Below, one piece after another: positions 7,784 to 21,553 of a stretch of 64,000 bases of DNA. Source of the DNA: an uncultured Flavobacteriaceae bacterium (GTDB lineage Bacteria; Bacteroidota; Bacteroidia; Flavobacteriales; Flavobacteriaceae). Position 1 is the first letter of the stretch. Each line of letters begins with the position of its first letter. The notes under the pieces were generated by a model. The model saw only the letters and a program-made list of their open reading frames with translations, had not been told where the DNA came from and ran no database searches. The position numbers and the translations under genes were made by a program. Location of the stretch: the NCBI GenBank assembly GCA_938017825.1, contig CALIJE010000011.1, forward strand, positions 1-64,000, written 5' to 3'.

Positions 7784-9055
7784 ATGCAGTTTGAAAATAC
7801 CTTGGAATTTGCGCAGCGCTTAGACGCTAACGACCCTTTGCGTCACTACCGCGAAGACTTCCATTTCCCCAAGGTAAATGGGGAGCAAGTAATTTACTTT
7901 ACGGGTAATTCATTGGGCTTGCAGCCAAAACGGACCAAAAAGTACGTTGATGAAATCATGACGGACTGGGCAGAACTGGCTGTCGAAGGACACTTTCATG
8001 CCGATAAACCATGGTGGGATTATCATGAACATTTGGCTAGCCCACTTGCTAAAGTAGTAGGAGCAAAGCCGGAGGAGATTACAGTTATGAATACCTTGAC
8101 GGTAAACCTTCATTTGCTAATGGTATCTTTTTATAGACCTACGGCCAAACGCTTTAAAATTATTTGTGAGGAAAAGGCATTTCCCTCTGATCAATACATG
8201 TTCGACAGCCAACTGCGATTTCATAATATCGACCCTCAAGAGGCCTTGGTGACCGTCAAAAAGAGAACAGGTGAACATTTTTGGCGAACAGACGATATAC
8301 TCGATAAAATCGAAGAAATTGGTGATGAGCTGGCATTGGTTCTTATTGGCGGTGTAAACTACTATTCAGGTCAAGTTTTCGATATGAAGGCGATTACCGA
8401 AAAAGGCAAGGCGGTCGGTGCAATGGTCGGTTGGGACCTTGCGCACGCCGTAGGTAATGTCGCCTTAGAATTACACGATTGGAATGTTGATTTTGCAGCA
8501 TGGTGCAGTTATAAATATATGAATAGCGGTCCCGGCAATGCCTCAGGGATTTTTGTGAATAAAAAGCACTTGAACAAAAAAGGTATACAACGATTTGAAG
8601 GCTGGTGGGGCACCAAAAAAGAAACCCGCTTTTTGATGAAACCCGAGTTCGAACCTATGGAAAATGCCGATGCTTGGCAAATTAGCAATGTACCGGTGCT
8701 ATCTGTTGCCCCGTATTTGGCGTCCTTGGAAATGTTCGAAGAAGTAGGGATGGAGAAATTAATTGAAAAACGGAAAAAAATAGTTGCCTTTTTGGAGTTC
8801 GTATTGCGGGAGGTTGACAAAGAAGTTGCGGGTACTTTTGAAATAATTACCCCTAGTGACAGAGGTTGTCAACTTTCGGTATTCTTACACGGGCACGGTA
8901 AGTGGCTCTTCGATTACCTAATGAAGAAAGGGGTGGTGACCGATTGGCGTGAACCTAATGTGATTCGTTTGGCGCCTGCCCCTTTCTATTGCTCTTTTGA
9001 GGATATGTACCGTTTTGGGCAAGTCCTAAAGGAAGGAATACTTCAAAATGCTTAA
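7784..9055 (+). CDS. kynU: Kynureninase
   Basis: 423 residues, the usual length. This PLP enzyme cleaves kynurenine or 3-hydroxykynurenine to anthranilate or 3-hydroxyanthranilate plus alanine. Recognised segments are YFTGNSLGLQP near the N-terminus, WDLAHAVGN with the PLP-pairing aspartate, and WCSYKYMNSGPG with the Schiff-base lysine at about K244. The C-terminal part includes DWREPNVIRLAPAPFY. Kynurenine 3-monooxygenase is encoded about 6 kb downstream on the same strand, so both late-pathway enzymes are present in the window. No tryptophan dioxygenase, formamidase or 3-hydroxyanthranilate dioxygenase was seen. Confidence 0.96.
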   Translation: MQFENTLEFAQRLDANDPLRHYREDFHFPKVNGEQVIYFTGNSLGLQPKRTKKYVDEIMTDWAELAVEGHFHADKPWWDYHEHLASPLAKVVGAKPEEITVMNTLTVNLHLLMVSFYRPTAKRFKIICEEKAFPSDQYMFDSQLRFHNIDPQEALVTVKKRTGEHFWRTDDILDKIEEIGDELALVLIGGVNYYSGQVFDMKAITEKGKAVGAMVGWDLAHAVGNVALELHDWNVDFAAWCSYKYMNSGPGNASGIFVNKKHLNKKGIQRFEGWWGTKKETRFLMKPEFEPMENADAWQISNVPVLSVAPYLASLEMFEEVGMEKLIEKRKKIVAFLEFVLREVDKEVAGTFEIITPSDRGCQLSVFLHGHGKWLFDYLMKKGVVTDWREPNVIRLAPAPFYCSFEDMYRFGQVLKEGILQNA

Positions 9056-9844: not shown

Positions 9845-10393
9845 ATGAGTTCTAAAAAAGGAAAAATACAAGAGGCTATTGACGAAAAAATGTTGGATGA
9901 ACGCAAAGTGTTCCTATGGGGCATGGTCGATGATGATTCGGCGAAACATGTGATTGATCGTTTATTGTATCTTGATTTACAGAATGATAAAGAAATTCAA
10001 TTGTACATTAATAGCCCTGGGGGTTATGTCACCTCCGGTTTTGCAATGTACGACACGATCAAATTATTGAAAAGTCCGGTGTCAACCATTTGTACCGGTC
10101 TAGCAGCTTCCATGGGTTCAATTTTGTTGTCTGTTGGGAAAAAAGGCAGACGTTTTATTCAACCCCATGCCCAAGTTATGATTCACCAGCCAAGTGGTGG
10201 TGCTCGAGGGCAAGCCTCGAATATTGAAATTCAGGCTCGAGAAATTATTAAAACCAAAGAGCTTAGCGCGAAGCTTTTGGCCGATAACTGTGGTCAAAAA
10301 TATGATAAGGTCTTAAAAGACTTTGATCGTGATTACTGGATGAGCGCGGAAGAATCTGTCGAATATGGAATTGTTGATGGTATCTTGAAGTAG
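9845..10393 (+). CDS. clpP: ClpP-family serine protease
   Basis: 182 residues. The catalytic triad is visible: Ser89 in GLAASMG, His114 in VMIHQPSGG and Asp163 in FDRDYWMS. The INSPGG oxyanion segment lies at 55-60. It is shorter than classical ClpP at the N-terminus. Flavobacteria often carry a canonical clpP next to clpX plus a second copy; this gene has no clpX beside it, so it may be the second copy. It would form tetradecameric rings with a Clp ATPase for cytosolic proteolysis. It is monocistronic, with its own promoter element and a strong terminator. Confidence 0.9.
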   Translation: MSSKKGKIQEAIDEKMLDERKVFLWGMVDDDSAKHVIDRLLYLDLQNDKEIQLYINSPGGYVTSGFAMYDTIKLLKSPVSTICTGLAASMGSILLSVGKKGRRFIQPHAQVMIHQPSGGARGQASNIEIQAREIIKTKELSAKLLADNCGQKYDKVLKDFDRDYWMSAEESVEYGIVDGILK

Positions 10394-10469: not shown

Positions 10470-11375
10470 TTAAAAGAAACGAGGCGACTTAATACCGCCT
10501 AAACGTTTAATTGGCATTTCATAAATCAAGATAATTTCATGTGTGCCGCCGGTATATGGTTTTATTGCACTTGTCGGCAAATCATAGGCATAGCCTACCC
10601 GAAAAGAATTCGATAATTGATAATCTACCATCGCTCCAAAATTATCGGCATCATTAAAGCGGTACGACGCACCTACCCATAGTTTGTCAAAGAACAACAA
10701 GTTAGCAGTCACATCATAGGTTGCCGGAGCCCCATTGGTGAATTTGGCAATGGCGGTCGTTTTGAATTTGGTTGCTCCCCCTATATCGAATACCTTTCCG
10801 CCAATGACGTAGTAACTGTTTCGTTCAATGGCCGCAAATTCCCCCTGGTTCAAATCTGTATTCAATAAGCGCGGTGAAGAAAGACCTATGTACCACATTC
10901 TGCTGCTTACATAGATACCCGCACCTAAATTCGGATTCCATTTTGTAAACCCATCTGTGAAAAAAGGGTCTAAAGGGTCGGGATTTTCTAAACTGTAATT
11001 GGTTACCCCGGCGTTTAGTCCAAAAGCCATATTTACTTTTTGACTAAGAGGAACTGTATAGGAAAAGTTACCGTAAATATAGTTGGTGCCTTCATCTCCC
11101 AATTGATCGTTTATATAGGTTAGTCCCAGGCCCACACGGCTGAATTTAACCGGTGCATGAACCGAAAGGGTGCTCGTGGTCGGGTTTCCTTCGATGCCGG
11201 CCCATTGATTTCTATGTAGGGCAGTGGCACTAAACGTTTCTCTGCTACCCGCGTAGGCAGGGTTCACCGACATTGTATTGTACACATATTGTGTAAACTG
11301 TGGCAACTGCTGCGCACATACCAAACTGGTGGTCAAGAAAATAGCGCAAATGATAATTTGTTTCAATTTGAACAT
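10470..11375 (-). CDS. PorP/SprF family type IX secretion membrane protein
   Basis: 301 residues with a signal peptide (MFKLKQIIICAIFLTTSLVCAQ). The PorP/SprF signature follows: QLPQFTQYVYNTMSVNPAYAGSR, then ALHRNQWAGIEGNP. The rest has alternating beta-strand patterns of a 14-stranded outer-membrane barrel. Such proteins act in type IX secretion; SprF paralogues are needed for secretion or surface attachment of a specific partner, often a cargo with a type B C-terminal domain encoded next door. That arrangement occurs here: the gene starts 8 bp after the stop of the CHU_C-domain protein gene on the same strand. Confidence 0.92.
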   Translation of the reverse strand: MFKLKQIIICAIFLTTSLVCAQQLPQFTQYVYNTMSVNPAYAGSRETFSATALHRNQWAGIEGNPTTSTLSVHAPVKFSRVGLGLTYINDQLGDEGTNYIYGNFSYTVPLSQKVNMAFGLNAGVTNYSLENPDPLDPFFTDGFTKWNPNLGAGIYVSSRMWYIGLSSPRLLNTDLNQGEFAAIERNSYYVIGGKVFDIGGATKFKTTAIAKFTNGAPATYDVTANLLFFDKLWVGASYRFNDADNFGAMVDYQLSNSFRVGYAYDLPTSAIKPYTGGTHEIILIYEMPIKRLGGIKSPRFF

Positions 11376-11383
11376 AATTGATG

Positions 11384-14300
11384 CTATTGGTTAGACGATC
11401 CAATATAGATATACCCATTGATAGGTTTTGTATTTGTACTTGGTACCGATACGATATAATAGTACGTACCGGAAGGCAATATTCCTGACTGACCAATAGA
11501 ACTATCGGGAGCATAACCTCCCCAATCATTTTGGTAATCTTTTGATGTATAAACCATTGTTCCCCAACGGTTAAATATTTGAACTTCGTATATGAAACCA
11601 CAGTTTTCTAGGCCCAATAGCTCAAAATAGTCGTTTATACCATCACCATTTACTGTAATTGTCTTAGAAACAATCAAGTTTTCTAGATTACAATCAACGC
11701 AGTCATTGTTTACGTTTATGGTAAAATCAGCATAGTATTTACAATCTCCCTCAGTAGAGGCATATTCAATAGTATATGAACCAAGCTCTAGGCCTTGAGG
11801 ATCAAACATGCTGCCATCGACCATTGCGTTTCCAGTCGTCACGGTGAAAGTTCCATTCATATCAAAATCTGCCGGCAATGAATTCAATAAGTCGATTGGT
11901 GCATCGTCTACACATATGTCTAGTGCTACGACGGCTCTTTCTTGTTGCATTACAAAAATGATTTGCTCAAAAGTGGCCGTGTTTCCACAGATATCAGAAA
12001 CATTCCAGGTTCTGATAATCATATAATCTTCAGTTCCTGTAGGATAATCTTCAGTTTCGGTAAAGTCAACCGTATAATTTCCACACCCTCCTGTAAAGGT
12101 TAGGCTTGGCACGTCTGGAACATCTTCACCGCACATAATGGTGTATTCGGCTGTATAGTCACTTACCATAATATCGCCCATATCATCGTCGTTGATCGTA
12201 CCGTTGGCGGTGTTGGTGGCGTTGCCATCAACGAAACCTATACCGATGTTCGACTGAACGTTCGAAAGTTCAATGGTGAAGGCCTCTTGTGGCTCGATCA
12301 CGTTATCGTCCGTAATGGGCACCTGGATCTCCAATGAGCTCACGGTCGGTGTAAAGGTCAACGTACCGGTAGTGGTCACGAAGTCGTTCGGGTTCAGTGC
12401 CGATCCTTCGATGGTGGTATAGTCGACGGTCACGTTTTCGGAAATGTTCCCAGTCAAGGTCACGGTGTATATCGCAAAGGCGTCGGTACCCTCTGTCACG
12501 ATGACATTGGTATTGGCGAAGGCGATACCGTCCCCTGGGTTGTTGTCATTATCCAATATAGTACCTCTAGCAGTATTGTCTAGTATTGTTATCTCAGAAG
12601 TAGAGGTCAATGTAATGTCGAATGTCTCATCAATTTCAATTATAGCATCGTCTACCGTTGGCAGGTTCATAGTTGTATTACCGGTTCCTGAGGGAATAGT
12701 ATAGGTAGCGAAGGCATTGTAATCACCATCTACGGTTGTAATATTCGTATAGCTTACATCAACAACGGCATCTCGTGCCAAAAGGTGTGAAGAACGTATT
12801 CCAAATGGAATGTCGGTACCTTCAATTGCTGAGGCGTCGTCAAACGAGATTACAGGAATAACCCTTAAATATGTTGGGTCGTGATTTCCTATACCACAGG
12901 CATCTACGGTGCCAGAACTTAAGGTCGAAACCATATTTGGGTTAGTCACCCCTGTGAACGTAGCCATAGCCTGCAATCCAATATCGGCACTGCAGGTTAC
13001 ACATTCGTGGTTAATAAAAAGATTGAAATCCAGTTCATATTCCGGGTCATTTATATCGGTATACCCATCCTCTACGAAGAAGCGCAGTTCTCGAGATGAG
13101 TTGTCAAAATTATAAGTAACCCCGGGAGGTAAAGGCTCTGTATTGGTAAATTCTACTTGTGGGGGTAAAATTAGACTGATTTCCAGATTTTGAATATCGT
13201 CATTACCAACATTCTTAACTCTAATCTCAACCGGCGCATTATCACCGGGATTAAAGGTTGAACCTATGACGTTGGTGGTAAAACTAAGAGCACCGAGACT
13301 TGGTTCAAAGACTTCGACACTTAGCCCCATTAAATAGAGGCCATAGGTTTCCTGATTAGAGGTTAGTCTAAAAGTTGCCGAAGTTTGGTCATTATCTATT
13401 AATATTCTGGCATTGTTTTCTAACTCGAATAAAGATGCGTCAAAACCCAATGTATTGGTACTTGCAGGGTTTCTGTCTAAAAATGGGGATTCATTGATTG
13501 TTATCTTACTATTAAAAAAGTTGTTGACATCACGTTCGCTTGTTGTAAGAGACGTCCAGTTTCCTGTTGTGTCAAAAATTTGAAGTTGATCACCCTGTAT
13601 TCCTCTATCGCCCTCTGTTGAACCAATTACGACATTGGCATTTACAGGACCGTTGGGAACAGTTTGAAAACCATCGAATAAAATATCAAAGGAGTTGTCG
13701 GTTTGGGTTACATTGGCATACCCATCAAAAAGGGTAATGTTTCTGTTTCTCAATTCTGGACTTTCATATACAAATACAATTTGCCACCCGCCAGAGGTAC
13801 CCGTATTTCGATCATCAGTATCTATATGCTCGAAAAGGCTACCTACCGTTGCCTTTACATTGGCCACTTGAAACCTTCCATAAGGATCGGATAGCCCTTG
13901 TACTTCAGATGTAATATCCTTAACGCAAACATAAGGGTCGTTTACAAAGTGCTCTGCGCGACCATTGAAAATAACGTCGTCTGCAGTAATCGTATTATAT
14001 GTATTAGACCCTGGCAACATCAATTTGACTTGGTCAAAGGGCCAGTTCACCTCAGGTTGACCGTTTCCGGTCATATTACCATTGTTATCGGGTCCATTTT
14101 CCTTGTTTGCAGCAGCCCAGTACAGATAGGCACGCGTAAAAGTTAAACAGGCACTTCCCGGTGAAGGGTTGACCAGATTTGCACTACTCGAATTAAAAGT
14201 CGTTGCATCAGAATCAATATCTACGAAAGAGGTAAAAATGCTGTTATTATCGCTACTACCGTTATAGGCATTCGTAGGATGCTCTGAAAGTACATTATTA

Positions 14301-14986: not shown

Positions 14987-16342
14987 ATGAACACAATGAA
15001 TATTGAACAGAATACCAAAAACATTGCTATAATCGGCTCTGGCCTTGTTGGGTCGCTATTGGCTATATATTTAAAACGTTTAGGGCATTCGGTAACCGTT
15101 TTCGATCGGCGGCCAGATATTAGAAATATTGAATTTTCAGGACGATCTATCAACTTGGCCATGAGTAACCGTGGCTGGTTGGCATTGCGTGAAGTTGGTA
15201 TTGAGGAAGAAATTAAAAAAATTGCCATTCCTTTAGATAAGAGGGCTATGCATATTATTGGGAAACCCCAATATTATCAGTACTATGGCAAATCTGGGGA
15301 GGCAATTTGGTCTATTTCTAGAGGGGTTTTGAATAGAAGAATGATTGATCTTGCGGAAAAATCGGGCGCCACTTTCCGATTTGAGGAAAAAGTATGGGAT
15401 ATCGACCTCCCCAAAGCGAAAATATATACCGGTGAAAGTGAAAAGGGACATTGGGAGGAATATCAATTTGATATGGTTTTTGGCTGTGATGGCGCATTTT
15501 CAAGGGTGCGTCATAAAATGCAACGTCGCAGTCGATTCGACTATTCCCAAGATTTCATAGATGTCGGTTACAAAGAACTTACCATTCCTGCCAACGAGGA
15601 CGGTACCCATAAACTAGATAAAAACTCATTTCATATATGGCCTCGGGGCAAATTTATGCTTATTGCAATGCCCAATCTCGATGGAAGCTTTACCTGCACG
15701 CTTTTCATGCCCTTTGAAGGGGAGGTCTCTTTCGAAAATATTACAAGCAAAGAGGCGGCGAAACACTTTTTCAATACATATTTTCCCAATGTAATGCAGG
15801 TAATAGAAGATTTGTTGGAGGATTTCTTTAAGAATCCAACGAGTGCCATGGTGACCATGAAATGCTATCCTTGGACCTATTGGGACAAGGTTGCCCTAGT
15901 AGGTGATTCGGCACATGCCGTAGTACCGTTTTATGGGCAAGGTATGAATGCCGGTTTTGAAGATATATTCAAGTTGAACGAAATCATCAAAAAAAACAAG
16001 GATGATTGGGAGGCTATTTTCAAGGAATACCAACAAACCAGGAAACCAAATGCCGATGCAATTGCCGAACTCAGTTATAGAAACTTTATCGAAATGAGTA
16101 GTAAAACTGCTGACCCTATCTTTTTGTTGCAAAAGAAGATTGAAAAGCATTTTGCCGCCAAATACCCGGATAAGTGGATACCGGCATATTCTAGGGTTAC
16201 CTTTTCTGCAAGACCTTATAGTGAGGCGTTAGCTATTGGTGATGCTCAAGAAAAGATTATGCAAGAGGTCATGAAAATGCCCAATATTGCCGAAGAATGG
16301 GATAGCAGGGTAGTGGAGGAGAAGATTTTGAGCCTGTTGTAA
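14987..16342 (+). CDS. kmo: Kynurenine 3-monooxygenase (FAD-dependent)
   Basis: 451 residues. It hydroxylates kynurenine to 3-hydroxykynurenine with NADPH and O2. The N-terminal dinucleotide fold is IAIIGSGLVGSLLAIYLKRLG, and the substrate-site segment is SGRSINLAMSNRGWLALREVG. The second FAD motif is VALVGDSAHAVVPFYGQGMNAGFED. These, and the RxY-type residues around FEEKVWD, match KMO rather than a general aromatic hydroxylase. The C-terminus is partly hydrophobic, as in membrane-associated KMO, but no clear TM helix is seen. A second ATG at 14996 is an alternative start. It works with kynU, about 6 kb upstream. Confidence 0.95.
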   Translation: MNTMNIEQNTKNIAIIGSGLVGSLLAIYLKRLGHSVTVFDRRPDIRNIEFSGRSINLAMSNRGWLALREVGIEEEIKKIAIPLDKRAMHIIGKPQYYQYYGKSGEAIWSISRGVLNRRMIDLAEKSGATFRFEEKVWDIDLPKAKIYTGESEKGHWEEYQFDMVFGCDGAFSRVRHKMQRRSRFDYSQDFIDVGYKELTIPANEDGTHKLDKNSFHIWPRGKFMLIAMPNLDGSFTCTLFMPFEGEVSFENITSKEAAKHFFNTYFPNVMQVIEDLLEDFFKNPTSAMVTMKCYPWTYWDKVALVGDSAHAVVPFYGQGMNAGFEDIFKLNEIIKKNKDDWEAIFKEYQQTRKPNADAIAELSYRNFIEMSSKTADPIFLLQKKIEKHFAAKYPDKWIPAYSRVTFSARPYSEALAIGDAQEKIMQEVMKMPNIAEEWDSRVVEEKILSLL

Positions 16343-16417: not shown

Positions 16418-17200
16418 CTAAATTTTAGCGAACATCTTATGCATCTTTGCTTGCTCCTCTTCGGCCAGAACAGGATCTATTAAGATGCGTCCACTATGCT
16501 CATCTGTGATGATTTTTTTTCGGGCTGCTATTTCAACCTGAACCTGAGGCGGAATAGTAAAAAATGAGCCGCCAGAGGCTCCTCTTTCTATAGCCACAAC
16601 CGCTAAACCATTCTTAACATTGCCTCTAATTCGAGTATAGGCCTTTACTAAACGCTCATCAATAGCTTTTTGATACTTTTCAGACTGTGATAAAAGGGCT
16701 TTTTCTTCCTTTTCGGTTTCGGCCAAAATATCATTCAACTCACTTTTCTTGTGCTTCAAATGCTTTTCACGTTCACTTAAACGTTCTTTGGTCTCTGAAA
16801 TCACTTCCTTCTTTTGTTCTATCTGAGCCTTGAACTCTTTGATATTCTTTTCGGCCAATTGAATTTCCAATTCCTGAAATTCCAATTCCTTGCTGATAGA
16901 ATTGAATTCACGGCTATTGCGAACGTTCTTTTGTTGTTCTGTATATTTTTTAATCAATGCCTTGGCCTCGTCGATAAGGTTCTTTTTGGCTCCTATTTCG
17001 AAGTTGATGGTTTCAACATCGGTTTTTAGCTTGTCCATTCGCGTTTTAAGGCCGGATACTTCATCTTCTAAATCTTCAACCTCCAACGGAAGCTCACCAC
17101 GAACATTGCGAATTTCGTCAACCCTAGAATCGATTAGTTGTAAATCGTACAATGCCCTTAACTTATCTTCTACCGTTGCTTCTGCTTTCTTTTTAGCCAT
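16418..17200 (-). CDS. Coiled-coil protein of the C4 zinc-ribbon family, cysteine-less
   Basis: 260 residues. Residues about 10-185 are a long charged coiled coil (LRALYDLQLIDSRVDEI..., repeated EK-rich heptads). The C-terminus keeps the family's ribbon scaffold (VAIERGASGGSFFTIPPQVQVEI... SGRILIDP). In related proteins the ribbon has two CxxC-type pairs. Here the corresponding positions read SGGS and DEHS, and the protein contains no cysteine at all, so zinc binding by the usual ligands is impossible. The gene begins 2 bp after the Nif3 stop, a pairing common in bacteria. The role is unknown. Confidence 0.88.
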   Translation of the reverse strand: MAKKKAEATVEDKLRALYDLQLIDSRVDEIRNVRGELPLEVEDLEDEVSGLKTRMDKLKTDVETINFEIGAKKNLIDEAKALIKKYTEQQKNVRNSREFNSISKELEFQELEIQLAEKNIKEFKAQIEQKKEVISETKERLSEREKHLKHKKSELNDILAETEKEEKALLSQSEKYQKAIDERLVKAYTRIRGNVKNGLAVVAIERGASGGSFFTIPPQVQVEIAARKKIITDEHSGRILIDPVLAEEEQAKMHKMFAKI

Positions 17201-18345: not shown

Positions 18346-19350
18346 ATGTTGCTCCGAAAAATACTGTTTCCGTTTTCCCTGTTGTATGCCTTGGTGGTCC
18401 GGTATCGGAATTATCTGTATGATGCGGGAATTAAAAAATCTACAGTATTCAGGACAAAGACCATTTGTATTGGGAACCTTAGCGTAGGGGGTACCGGTAA
18501 AACACCAATGACCGAGTATCTTATAGGTCAATTGAAAAATGATCATAAAGTTGCTGTGCTAAGTCGCGGATATAAGCGAAAAAGTACCGGATTTCTTCTG
18601 GCGGATGAGCAATCTTCGGTTGAGTCTCTTGGCGATGAGCCCTATCAAATACATAATAAATTCCCAAAGATAGCGGTTGCCGTCGATGCCGATCGACGAA
18701 ACGGAATTGCACTGCTGGAAAAACAAATAAAGCCCGATGTCATTTTGTTGGATGATGCCTTTCAACATCGAAAAGTTAAGGCTGGTCTGAATATTTTGCT
18801 TACGGCTTACGGAAAATTGTATTGCGACGATTGGTATTTGCCAACAGGAAATCTTCGTGATAGCAAAAGGGAGGCCAAGCGTGCAGATGTAATCGTGGTT
18901 ACCAAATGCCCCTCTAACATCTCAAACGAGCAGCAAAAGCAATTACGGGATAAAATTAGGCCAAACGCTAACCAACAATTGCTATTTAGCTGCTTAGTCA
19001 ATGACGCTGGCTTTCACAGTAGAAAGGAAGTGGTCGACATTTCGGCATTTAAAGGAAAAAAGGTAAGCTTGGTTACCGGTATTGCTGATTCACAGCCTCT
19101 TAAAACGTATTTAGAGGGGCGTGGACTAGCTTTTGAGCATTTATCCTATACAGACCATCATTTTTTTACAACCAAGGAATTAGTGTACTTAAATTCGAAA
19201 GAGGTGGTTATTACAACTGAGAAGGATTTTATGCGCCTGAAAGAACATATTGGTGCATTATACTATATTCCAGTAAGACATGAATTTGTCGGCGATGATG
19301 GGGCACAGTTGGCCAACGTGGTAACGACTTTTATGAAGCAGGGTATTTGA
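18346..19350 (+). CDS. lpxK: Tetraacyldisaccharide 4'-kinase
   Basis: 334 residues from the ATG at 18346. The track used an upstream GTG that lies in the divergent promoter region. LpxK phosphorylates the 4' position of the lipid A precursor at the inner membrane. Visible are the N-terminal membrane-associated helix (MLLRKILFPFSLLYALVV), the Walker A loop GNLSVGGTGKTP, and VAVLSRGYKRKS. LGDEPYQIHNKFP and VILLDDAFQHRKV (Walker B with the catalytic Asp-His) follow. The 3' end overlaps the convergent hybrid kinase gene by 20 bp. Confidence 0.95.
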   Translation: MLLRKILFPFSLLYALVVRYRNYLYDAGIKKSTVFRTKTICIGNLSVGGTGKTPMTEYLIGQLKNDHKVAVLSRGYKRKSTGFLLADEQSSVESLGDEPYQIHNKFPKIAVAVDADRRNGIALLEKQIKPDVILLDDAFQHRKVKAGLNILLTAYGKLYCDDWYLPTGNLRDSKREAKRADVIVVTKCPSNISNEQQKQLRDKIRPNANQQLLFSCLVNDAGFHSRKEVVDISAFKGKKVSLVTGIADSQPLKTYLEGRGLAFEHLSYTDHHFFTTKELVYLNSKEVVITTEKDFMRLKEHIGALYYIPVRHEFVGDDGAQLANVVTTFMKQGI

Positions 19351-21553
19351 CCCTCTTTTTGTCAAAGATGTTCTCGCCGATTTTTTGGTAGAAAACCTCA
19401 GGTTTAAACGGTTTGGTAACCACATCGTTACAACCGGCGGCATAGAATGCCTCTAAGCTATCATCCAAAGATATAGCAGTAAGCGCAACAATTGGGGTGC
19501 TTTTGTCAAATTTTCTTATCTCAATCGTAGCTTGGTCGCCGCTGATGCCCGGCATGTGAATGTCCATTAATATGGCGTCGTACGAATTTTTCTTCGCCAG
19601 GTTGATCGCCTCGTTGCCGTTGTTTGCAATATCACTGGTTATTTGTTTTTTCGACAACATTTTTTTGGTAATCACCTGATTGATCTTGTTATCCTCTACA
19701 ATAAGAATATGAAGGCCATCAAAGTCATAATCGGTTGTCGAAATCTCGAAAGGAATATCATCGACCACACTGTCTTTGCTTTTTAACTTCAATTCAAAAA
19801 AGAAAGAACTACCCTTGCCGAGTTCACTTTCTAATTGAATCTCGCTTTCGAATAGTCCAAGTAAACTTTTTACGATAGTTAGTCCAAGACCAGTACCTCC
19901 GTACTCCCTGTTAATTTGAATAGAACCCTGCTCAAAGCCTTCGAAAATGCTCTCTTGCTGGTCTTTTGAAATGCCAATACCATTATCTTCAACTTCAAAA
20001 TAAACGGTCACCTCATCATCCATTGCCTTCATTAGTTTGGCGACAACCCTTACTTTACCATCCTTGGTAAATTTGAGGGAGTTGCCCACTAGGTTCATAA
20101 AGACTTGGGATAATTTCAAAGGGTCGCTCATTAAATTGGTCGGAATGGCATCATCGTATTCCAATACAATTTCCGTATTGTTCTCTTTGGCACTCTGTTG
20201 TAACGAATCGATAACCTCTTGAAGCATTTTCTTTAGATTGAAATCGATATTAAGAGGTTCTAGTTTATCGGCATCTATTTTATTGATTTGCAGAATATCA
20301 TTGATAAAGTTCAGAAGGTAGTCCCCTGAAAATTTCAAAGATTTTAAATGTTCTTCCTGATTTTTGGTAGGATTTTCCTCAAGCAACAAATGGGTAAGGC
20401 CTGTTACTGCATACAATGGCGTTCTCAATTCATGGCTTACCGTAGAAAGAAAGTTTGTTTTGGCTTCCATAGCCTGTACCGCCGCATCGCGGGCCGCCTG
20501 CAACTCACTGTTCTTTATTTGCAACAGATCGTTGGTTTTGAGCTTAATCTGATTATTGCGATAGAGGGAAATTGCCAAAAGCGAAATGATGGTCAGGAAG
20601 GCAGAGGTTAATATGGCCGTAAGTTCAGATCGGTTTGCCGATTGGCTCAATTCTTCGTTTTCAGACTCTAACCTAATAATTTCATTGTCCTTGGTGTTGT
20701 TCAATATTTTGTCGGCTGTTTTCGAAGCTGTTTTTAGTTTGGCCACCGTAAAAATAGAATCTTTGATATTGAGCAGATTTTGTTTGTTATTTAAGGCCAA
20801 ATCGTATCGTTTACTTTTCTGGTACAATTCAGACAGTAACTCATTTACTTCAACAACTTCATTAAAAAATTTGTTGTCCCTCGACAGCGCCAATGCTTTC
20901 TCGGCATTAACTATGCTCTCTTCCAAATTGTCAGTGGCGAGGTTCATTTTTGACAAACCGATATAGGCATTTGTGGTCAAATATTCTTGCTCGTAAGGGT
21001 CCGTATTTATTACAAGTGAATTGAAATTCTTGGAGGCTATATCATATTTTTCGAGTCCTAAGTAAATATTCCCTTCTATAAGTAATACATTGTTGATTAA
21101 ATTTCTATCGTTGCTTAATTGCCTTGTTTCTTCAAGATCTTCCAAGGCTTGGTAGTTGTTACCGTCTTCGAACTTTCCTACCGCCGCAATGAATTTATGC
21201 GTTGCCTTGCCATAGGGGTATTCAAGATCGGCTAATTTGCCTTTGGCCCTGTCCCAGTAGAAGTCTGCGTCTTTTCGTTTATCAAGCTTCATGTAGATTA
21301 AGGCGAACTTATGATAGCTGTCGATCAAAGCTTTAAAGTCCTCATCTTTCTCTGCAACGATGGCTGCGTTCTCAATAGCTTTTAAGGCTTTTTCTGTTTG
21401 ACTTTGATTAGAGAGGCTGCGAGCTTCATTAAAGTATTCTATGGTGCTTCTTGAGGGGATGGAGTCTTGCGCCGAGAGCGTAGAAAATCCGGCTACAAGG
21501 ACAAGTAGTAGGCAACAATTGGAGATTATACGATGTAGCTTTTGAGTTTTCAA
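19331..21553 (-). CDS. TPR-containing hybrid sensor histidine kinase/response regulator
   Basis: 740 residues. Signal peptide 1-29; periplasmic TPR-like helical repeats at about 35-265; a coiled coil; one membrane helix at about 310-331 (LTAILTSAFLTIISLLAISLY). HisKA follows with His374 in STVSHELRTPL, then HATPase (NLVGNSLKFT, DNGIGI, GGTGLGL). The C-terminal receiver domain at about 616-740 has its phosphoacceptor in LMDIHMPG and its lysine in TKPF. The start is TTG, chosen because it gives an intact signal peptide and no upstream ATG exists. It overlaps the GAPDH stop (TTGA), so it is probably translated with gapA. The signal is unknown. Confidence 0.9.
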   Translation of the reverse strand: MKTQKLHRIISNCCLLLVLVAGFSTLSAQDSIPSRSTIEYFNEARSLSNQSQTEKALKAIENAAIVAEKDEDFKALIDSYHKFALIYMKLDKRKDADFYWDRAKGKLADLEYPYGKATHKFIAAVGKFEDGNNYQALEDLEETRQLSNDRNLINNVLLIEGNIYLGLEKYDIASKNFNSLVINTDPYEQEYLTTNAYIGLSKMNLATDNLEESIVNAEKALALSRDNKFFNEVVEVNELLSELYQKSKRYDLALNNKQNLLNIKDSIFTVAKLKTASKTADKILNNTKDNEIIRLESENEELSQSANRSELTAILTSAFLTIISLLAISLYRNNQIKLKTNDLLQIKNSELQAARDAAVQAMEAKTNFLSTVSHELRTPLYAVTGLTHLLLEENPTKNQEEHLKSLKFSGDYLLNFINDILQINKIDADKLEPLNIDFNLKKMLQEVIDSLQQSAKENNTEIVLEYDDAIPTNLMSDPLKLSQVFMNLVGNSLKFTKDGKVRVVAKLMKAMDDEVTVYFEVEDNGIGISKDQQESIFEGFEQGSIQINREYGGTGLGLTIVKSLLGLFESEIQLESELGKGSSFFFELKLKSKDSVVDDIPFEISTTDYDFDGLHILIVEDNKINQVITKKMLSKKQITSDIANNGNEAINLAKKNSYDAILMDIHMPGISGDQATIEIRKFDKSTPIVALTAISLDDSLEAFYAAGCNDVVTKPFKPEVFYQKIGENIFDKKRVKYPAS

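Follow-up and report, generated by a model that had tools for sequence, protein, structure and literature searches.

A GC-rich Calx-beta unit in a type IX cargo gene and raised silent-site GC in homogenised repeat arrays of Flavobacteriaceae

Introduction

Eukaryotic multigene families such as the histone genes and rDNA evolve in concert, and their homogenised copies become richer in GC than single copies. GC-biased gene conversion in bacteria is contested, being supported by Lassalle et al. 2015 (PMC4450053) and disputed by Ely 2021 (PMC8153448). A term search of PMC4450053 finds no mention of tandem repeats or paralogues, and a literature search of a limited collection yielded no study of GC-biased conversion in intragenic arrays of bacteria. 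Among cargo proteins of the type IX secretion system (T9SS), type B cargo binds a PorP-like partner, as in the SprB-SprF complex and its surface localisation (PMC9143113).

The window analysed here is a 64,000-nucleotide stretch (positions 1 to 64,000 of contig CALIJE010000011.1, assembly GCA_938017825.1) from an uncultured Flavobacteriaceae bacterium. It contains a T9SS cargo gene with a GC-rich block of 360 bp that covers a single Calx-beta domain. An initial annotation of the sequence proposed that this domain was acquired by recombination or gene conversion from another, GC-richer Calx-beta array.

Results

The GC step in the window

The block at 12181-12540 has a GC content of 0.528, compared with 0.350 at 12541-12660 and 0.442 at 12061-12180. 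These values bear out the earlier hand counts of about 53%, 35% and 44%. The block is the 360-bp stretch with the highest GC of the whole 64 kb (window mean 0.403, sd 0.031). Its excess is confined to third codon positions. GC1, GC2 and GC3 are 0.467, 0.417 and 0.700 in the block and average 0.456, 0.403 and 0.388 in the gene, and GC3 in the flanks is 0.30-0.40. With amino-acid composition held fixed, the block deviates from the 44 other window genes by z = +6.8. Amino-acid composition is rejected as the source of the excess, as z stays at 6.8 after correction. The runner-up 120-codon stretch in another window gene reaches z = +3.4; this second-highest GC3 deviation in the window lies in a hybrid sensor kinase-like gene (19331-21553).

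A change-point fit places the maximum-likelihood high-GC3 segment at residues 637-756, a length of 360 bp that is close to that of one array unit in the orthologues. The fitted start ranges over residues 633-641 and the end over residues 754-761. The log-likelihood ratio is 33.6, and the maximum in 300 permutations is 10.8. The Pfam match to Calx-beta (PF03160; 73.4 bits against a cut-off of 27, E 2e-20) spans residues 638-758, and the segment boundaries therefore coincide with the second Calx-beta domain, as had been suggested. The GC step is confirmed as real and sharp. The first Calx-beta domain, which had been described as AT-rich, is not unusually so; its GC3 of 0.32 is close to the gene norm.

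The host gene and its locus

The features of the locus are listed in Table 1. The cargo consists of an N-terminal module, two Calx-beta-like domains, an HYR-like domain and a CHU_C secretion signal. The unit tree places the first Calx-beta-like domain as an orthologue of the arrays' edge unit. Region 760-1021 of the cargo is conserved among orthologues, which share 50-69% amino acid identity across the N-terminal part. The adjacency of sprF and cargo is also kept in orthologues, and the PorP/SprF-like protein is likely the surface anchor partner of the cargo.

Table 1. Positions of the cargo gene, its domains and the neighbouring genes in the window
Feature	Position	Strand	Basis
T9SS cargo gene, 1023 aa	11384-14455	-	ORF list, Pfam, whole-gene orthologues
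GC-rich Calx-beta unit, residues 639-758, GC3 0.70	12182-12541	-	Pfam, GC3, unit tree
High-GC3 segment, maximum-likelihood extent	12188-12547	-	Change-point fit
First Calx-beta-like domain, diverged, with normal GC3, residues 532-637 approximately	12545-12862	-	Purpose-built HMM
Weakly matched HYR-like domain following the unit, residues 768-833	11957-12154	-	Pfam HYR_4C, E 0.0048, below cut-off
CHU_C type IX secretion signal domain, residues 928-1018	11402-11674	-	PF13585, E 1.7e-21, 76.6 bits
PorP/SprF-like outer-membrane protein gene, directly downstream of cargo	10470-11375	-	PF11751, E 7.6e-75, 252 bits (10473-11375)
Clp protease gene, syntenic marker	9845-10393	+	Pfam
Kynurenine 3-monooxygenase-like gene (kmo), syntenic marker	14987-16342	+	Pfam FAD_binding_3; name by sequence resemblance
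Coiled-coil protein gene znr, syntenic marker	16418-17200	-	Conservation beside kmo

The order znr-kmo-cargo-sprF-clpP is present, whole or to the limit of the fetched DNA, in L059-L065, L067, L069, G005, G401, L111 and L042. The Clp protease gene is conserved at the locus in L059-L062, L064, G005, G401 and others, and kmo is conserved upstream of the orthologues. The znr gene, for a putative zinc-ribbon-type coiled-coil protein, adjoins kmo at 83-90% identity in L063, L065, L069, G005, G401, L111 and L042. The locus is conserved within Flavobacteriaceae, and the kmo-cargo-sprF-clpP order extends across genera. In the window, kmo and a kynureninase-like gene (7784-9055) flank clpP, sprF and the cargo gene.

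In L042, L066 and L111, which have the same locus or the same C-terminal half with sprF, the N-terminal cargo module is swapped for unrelated ones. Because this module is replaced while the C-terminal part and sprF stay, the locus exchanges large domains.

Orthologous arrays

At the region of the block, the orthologues contain tandem Calx-beta domains, with eight in L059, seven in L060 and nine in Maribacter algarum (L061). The single-contig genome G401 contains 29 copies of a related 348-bp unit that are 99% identical and have a unit GC of 0.65. GC3 in G401 is approximately 0.94 in the units, 0.38-0.50 in the edge units and approximately 0.4 in the flanks. The M. algarum units have a GC3 of 0.44-0.56, where approximately 0.29 is expected. 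Unit GC3 is 0.78 in G005 and 0.81 in Ulvibacterium (L066). The composition of the arrays in L060, L062-L064 and L067 is near that of the host. The reading frame of the G401 array (6092-16177 of L120, G401:C1) is broken several times inside the array, either by long-read consensus errors or by real frameshifts.

The window gene contains no second near-identical unit, and homogenisation is therefore not seen directly there. Four strongly GC-rich units, from L113, L039, L066 and the window, have no visible near-identical sibling. Those of L113 and L039 lie at contig ends, inside arrays, and after that of L066 its own start is repeated. The lone window unit may be what remains after an array contracted or after assembly collapsed identical copies. 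Collapse of a long, identical array like that of G401 is a serious candidate, although somewhat doubtful; it is compatible with the preferred explanation of the block as part of a homogenising array and concerns only why one unit is visible. The orthologous arrays often end contigs (L062, L063, L064, L067, L069/L070, G005 C10/C12, G107 C17/C7), as do sibling-less GC-rich units elsewhere, which favours collapse. However, the window contig continues without a break, and no leftover unit contig is found in the genome.

Direction of the silent-site shift

Where the window unit and the clade consensus encode the same amino acid, the codons of the unit show 35 changes from A/T to G/C and three in reverse. 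The protein has not changed to a corresponding degree. The corresponding ratio is approximately 27 to 3 for the M. algarum units and approximately 1 to 1 for the GC-neutral arrays. A uniform G/C tilt of the background codon usage fits the block far better (lnL -118.9) than the background itself (-140.3) or ribosomal-protein usage (-141.3), and the shift is independent of codon optimality.

Selection at silent sites, for instance on translation, mRNA structure or array stability, could also prefer G/C-ending codons in the repeat units. That only silent sites are shifted and that T-to-C changes dominate (22 of the 35 changes to G/C in the window unit) are both consistent with it. However, the ribosomal protein genes of the same genome have a GC3 of only 0.36, and translational selection is rejected because their codon usage fits the block no better than background. 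Valine is encoded by GTG at a frequency of 0.64 in the block, despite 0.17 in ribosomal genes. The flanks of the same gene are unshifted, and unrelated domains show the effect. Selection is considered unlikely as the cause of the enrichment.

Relatives of the unit and the question of import

The closest relatives of the block are units of the orthologous gene, the best of which is from M. algarum (75% nucleotide and 84% amino acid identity). In the unit tree, the second window unit nests among the units of L059-L064 and L067 (aLRT 95), and the first groups with the first units of L059, L060, L061 and L063. As both domains are placed with their positional counterparts, the GC-rich unit occupies an ancestral place.

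If domain-level recombination had brought the GC-rich domain in from another gene or organism, sharp boundaries that fall on one domain would be accounted for. Composition-shifted units do occur in a different protein context (L066 and L116), and the N-terminal module at the locus varies between lineages. However, the unit's phylogenetic position is among, not away from, the orthologues of the host gene, and the high-GC3 state requires nine changes on the unit tree. Nucleotide searches find no second copy of the block in the same genome and no match in phages, and plasmids contain no protein-level match. Units from high-GC organisms share only 38-40% protein identity with the window unit. A near-identical cassette in another protein context, for which the initial annotation had proposed a search, was not found in the genome, plasmids, phages or relatives. 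Just one close relative that is GC-rich was found in a different context, in Ulvibacterium (L066); as it is 68% identical in DNA, it is not a shared recent cassette. A GC step is present at the array edges in the syntenic whole-gene orthologues of M. algarum, G005 and G401; with no nucleotide match elsewhere in the genome or in phages, this is largely the pattern that the initial annotation had set against its own proposal.

Import is rejected, or at least weakened, by the lack of a second copy in the genome, plasmids and phages and by the unit tree, and is considered quite improbable. Comparison with its relatives indicates that the block is not imported DNA but a unit of a tandem array in a vertically inherited gene. 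The part of the initial annotation that invoked recombination of single domains is retained. Such recombination was very probably involved, as homogenisation inside the gene's own tandem array; a source in another, GC-richer array is contradicted by the tree and unsupported by the searches of the genome, plasmids and phages.

GC3 excess and homogenisation across arrays

In a comparison of 319 units with their nearest siblings, GC3 excess rises with identity. It is approximately -0.02 below 80% identity, +0.07 at 80-90%, +0.10 at 90-97% and +0.38 at 97% or higher. The gene-level correlation of excess with identity is weaker (0.32, p = 0.04). When 100 loci (1.34 Mb) are scanned without regard to domain type, 52 tandem arrays built from several kinds of domain are recovered, in which GC3 excess also rises with homogeneity (Spearman 0.37, p = 0.006). 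The mean excess of the arrays is +0.07, or +0.11 at 92% identity or higher, where the null has an sd of 0.053. Counted by genome, the excess is positive in 20 of 26 (Wilcoxon p = 0.0007). In this test the G401 array was set by hand at +0.5, in agreement with its unit values, because frameshifts kept the scan from assigning an ORF. A test on loci that were fetched only once the hypothesis existed, with 12 arrays at 85% identity or higher, gives p = 0.026. The array p-values are approximate because the loci are a non-random sample and the genomes are related. Interior units have a higher GC3 than edge units (p = 0.013). Singleton mutations, used in a fixation-bias test of seven arrays, are too few and their counts heterogeneous, and a mutation bias may contribute to the excess.

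The excess is also present in arrays classed as non-Calx, to which HYR, fn3 and other repeats contribute; this classification is by keyword and misfiles a few arrays (e.g., L064). An effect specific to Calx-beta is rejected, since other array types carry the excess too. Seven near-identical fn3-type repeats at 7081-9023 of L223 (G088) have a GC3 of 0.62 where 0.41 is expected, an instance of the effect in a different domain. G088 had appeared to be a counter-example (units at -0.43) and was dismissed as such, as the reference used held its own GC-rich fn3 array. Among the strongest shifts are two arrays with periods of 201 and 255 bp (L170 10248-12001 and L161 12992-14001), with a GC3 of 0.76-0.77 where 0.33-0.40 is expected.

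Homogenised arrays in these bacteria tend to have raised GC3, with exceptions. Some homogeneous arrays have little or no excess (L064 at -0.04, L119 at +0.02, and L067 units at +0.06 at most), and two are negative (L190 at -0.13 and L073 at -0.07). The clearest opposite case is a 207-bp array at 9541-10083 of L190 (G065), which is 99% identical and has a GC3 0.13 under expectation.

Composition fluctuation, or the amplification of a chance GC-rich unit whose founder composition was copied because arrays descend from few units, is very unlikely, as matched non-array segments have an sd of 0.053 and a 99th percentile of +0.136, compared with +0.36 for the window unit and +0.43 to +0.55 for the G401 units, and 20 of 26 genomes show an upward shift.

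Discussion

The explanation favoured here, with moderate confidence, is that the T9SS surface-protein gene was inherited vertically and that the block is one Calx-beta unit of an array within it that homogenises. The most likely cause of its GC enrichment is GC-biased gene conversion. Unequal recombination and gene conversion would pass sequence between tandem units, and mismatch repair during conversion would favour G/C. Over repeated rounds, silent sites of the homogenised interior would move towards G/C, and the host composition would persist at the edges and in the flanks. Near-identical array copies tend to drift GC-rich, probably because G and C are favoured when one repeat is copied onto another. 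Whether homogenising surface-protein arrays of Flavobacteriaceae are natural recorders of strong bacterial GC-biased gene conversion, with silent sites up to 94% G/C in genes of about 40%, is finely balanced and tilts slightly towards doubt.

If arrays do record conversion, they offer a large-effect test of a contested process. An array beside unshifted flanks of the same gene provides an internal control that is absent from genome-wide correlations. An abrupt change of GC within a bacterial gene is not necessarily a sign of foreign DNA, and lone GC-rich repeat units may flag arrays that short-read assembly has lost.

Calx-beta arrays are a known kind of feature in T9SS cargo, and GC-biased conversion is likewise of a known kind. 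A strong, domain-sized conversion signature inside bacterial genes is apparently undescribed, as far as the searched literature shows. The window cargo resembles SprB/SprF (PMC9143113) in its CHU_C-type secretion domain and its adjacent PorP/SprF gene, and it may bind its PorP/SprF-like partner as type B cargo does. SprB carries SprB repeats, whereas the window cargo carries Calx-beta repeat domains. The Calx-beta domains of the Na/Ca exchanger (PDB 3us9, 8sgi and others) match the unit over approximately residues 18-98, with E down to 4.9e-15. In the exchanger they form a regulatory pair inside the cell; here they form a tandem secreted array with putative calcium binding. The array probably serves as a calcium-stabilised stalk for the secreted protein, which would be anchored via the adjacent SprF-like protein.

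Eukaryotic concerted evolution concerns multigene families, whereas the arrays described here are bacterial, lie inside a single coding sequence and have repeat periods of approximately 200-700 bp. The signal of PMC4450053 and that of the arrays have in common a raised GC3 tied to recombination and an effect on silent sites. PMC4450053 relates whole genes to recombination by correlation, whereas the arrays show a strong step the size of a domain, located inside genes whose repeats are homogenised.
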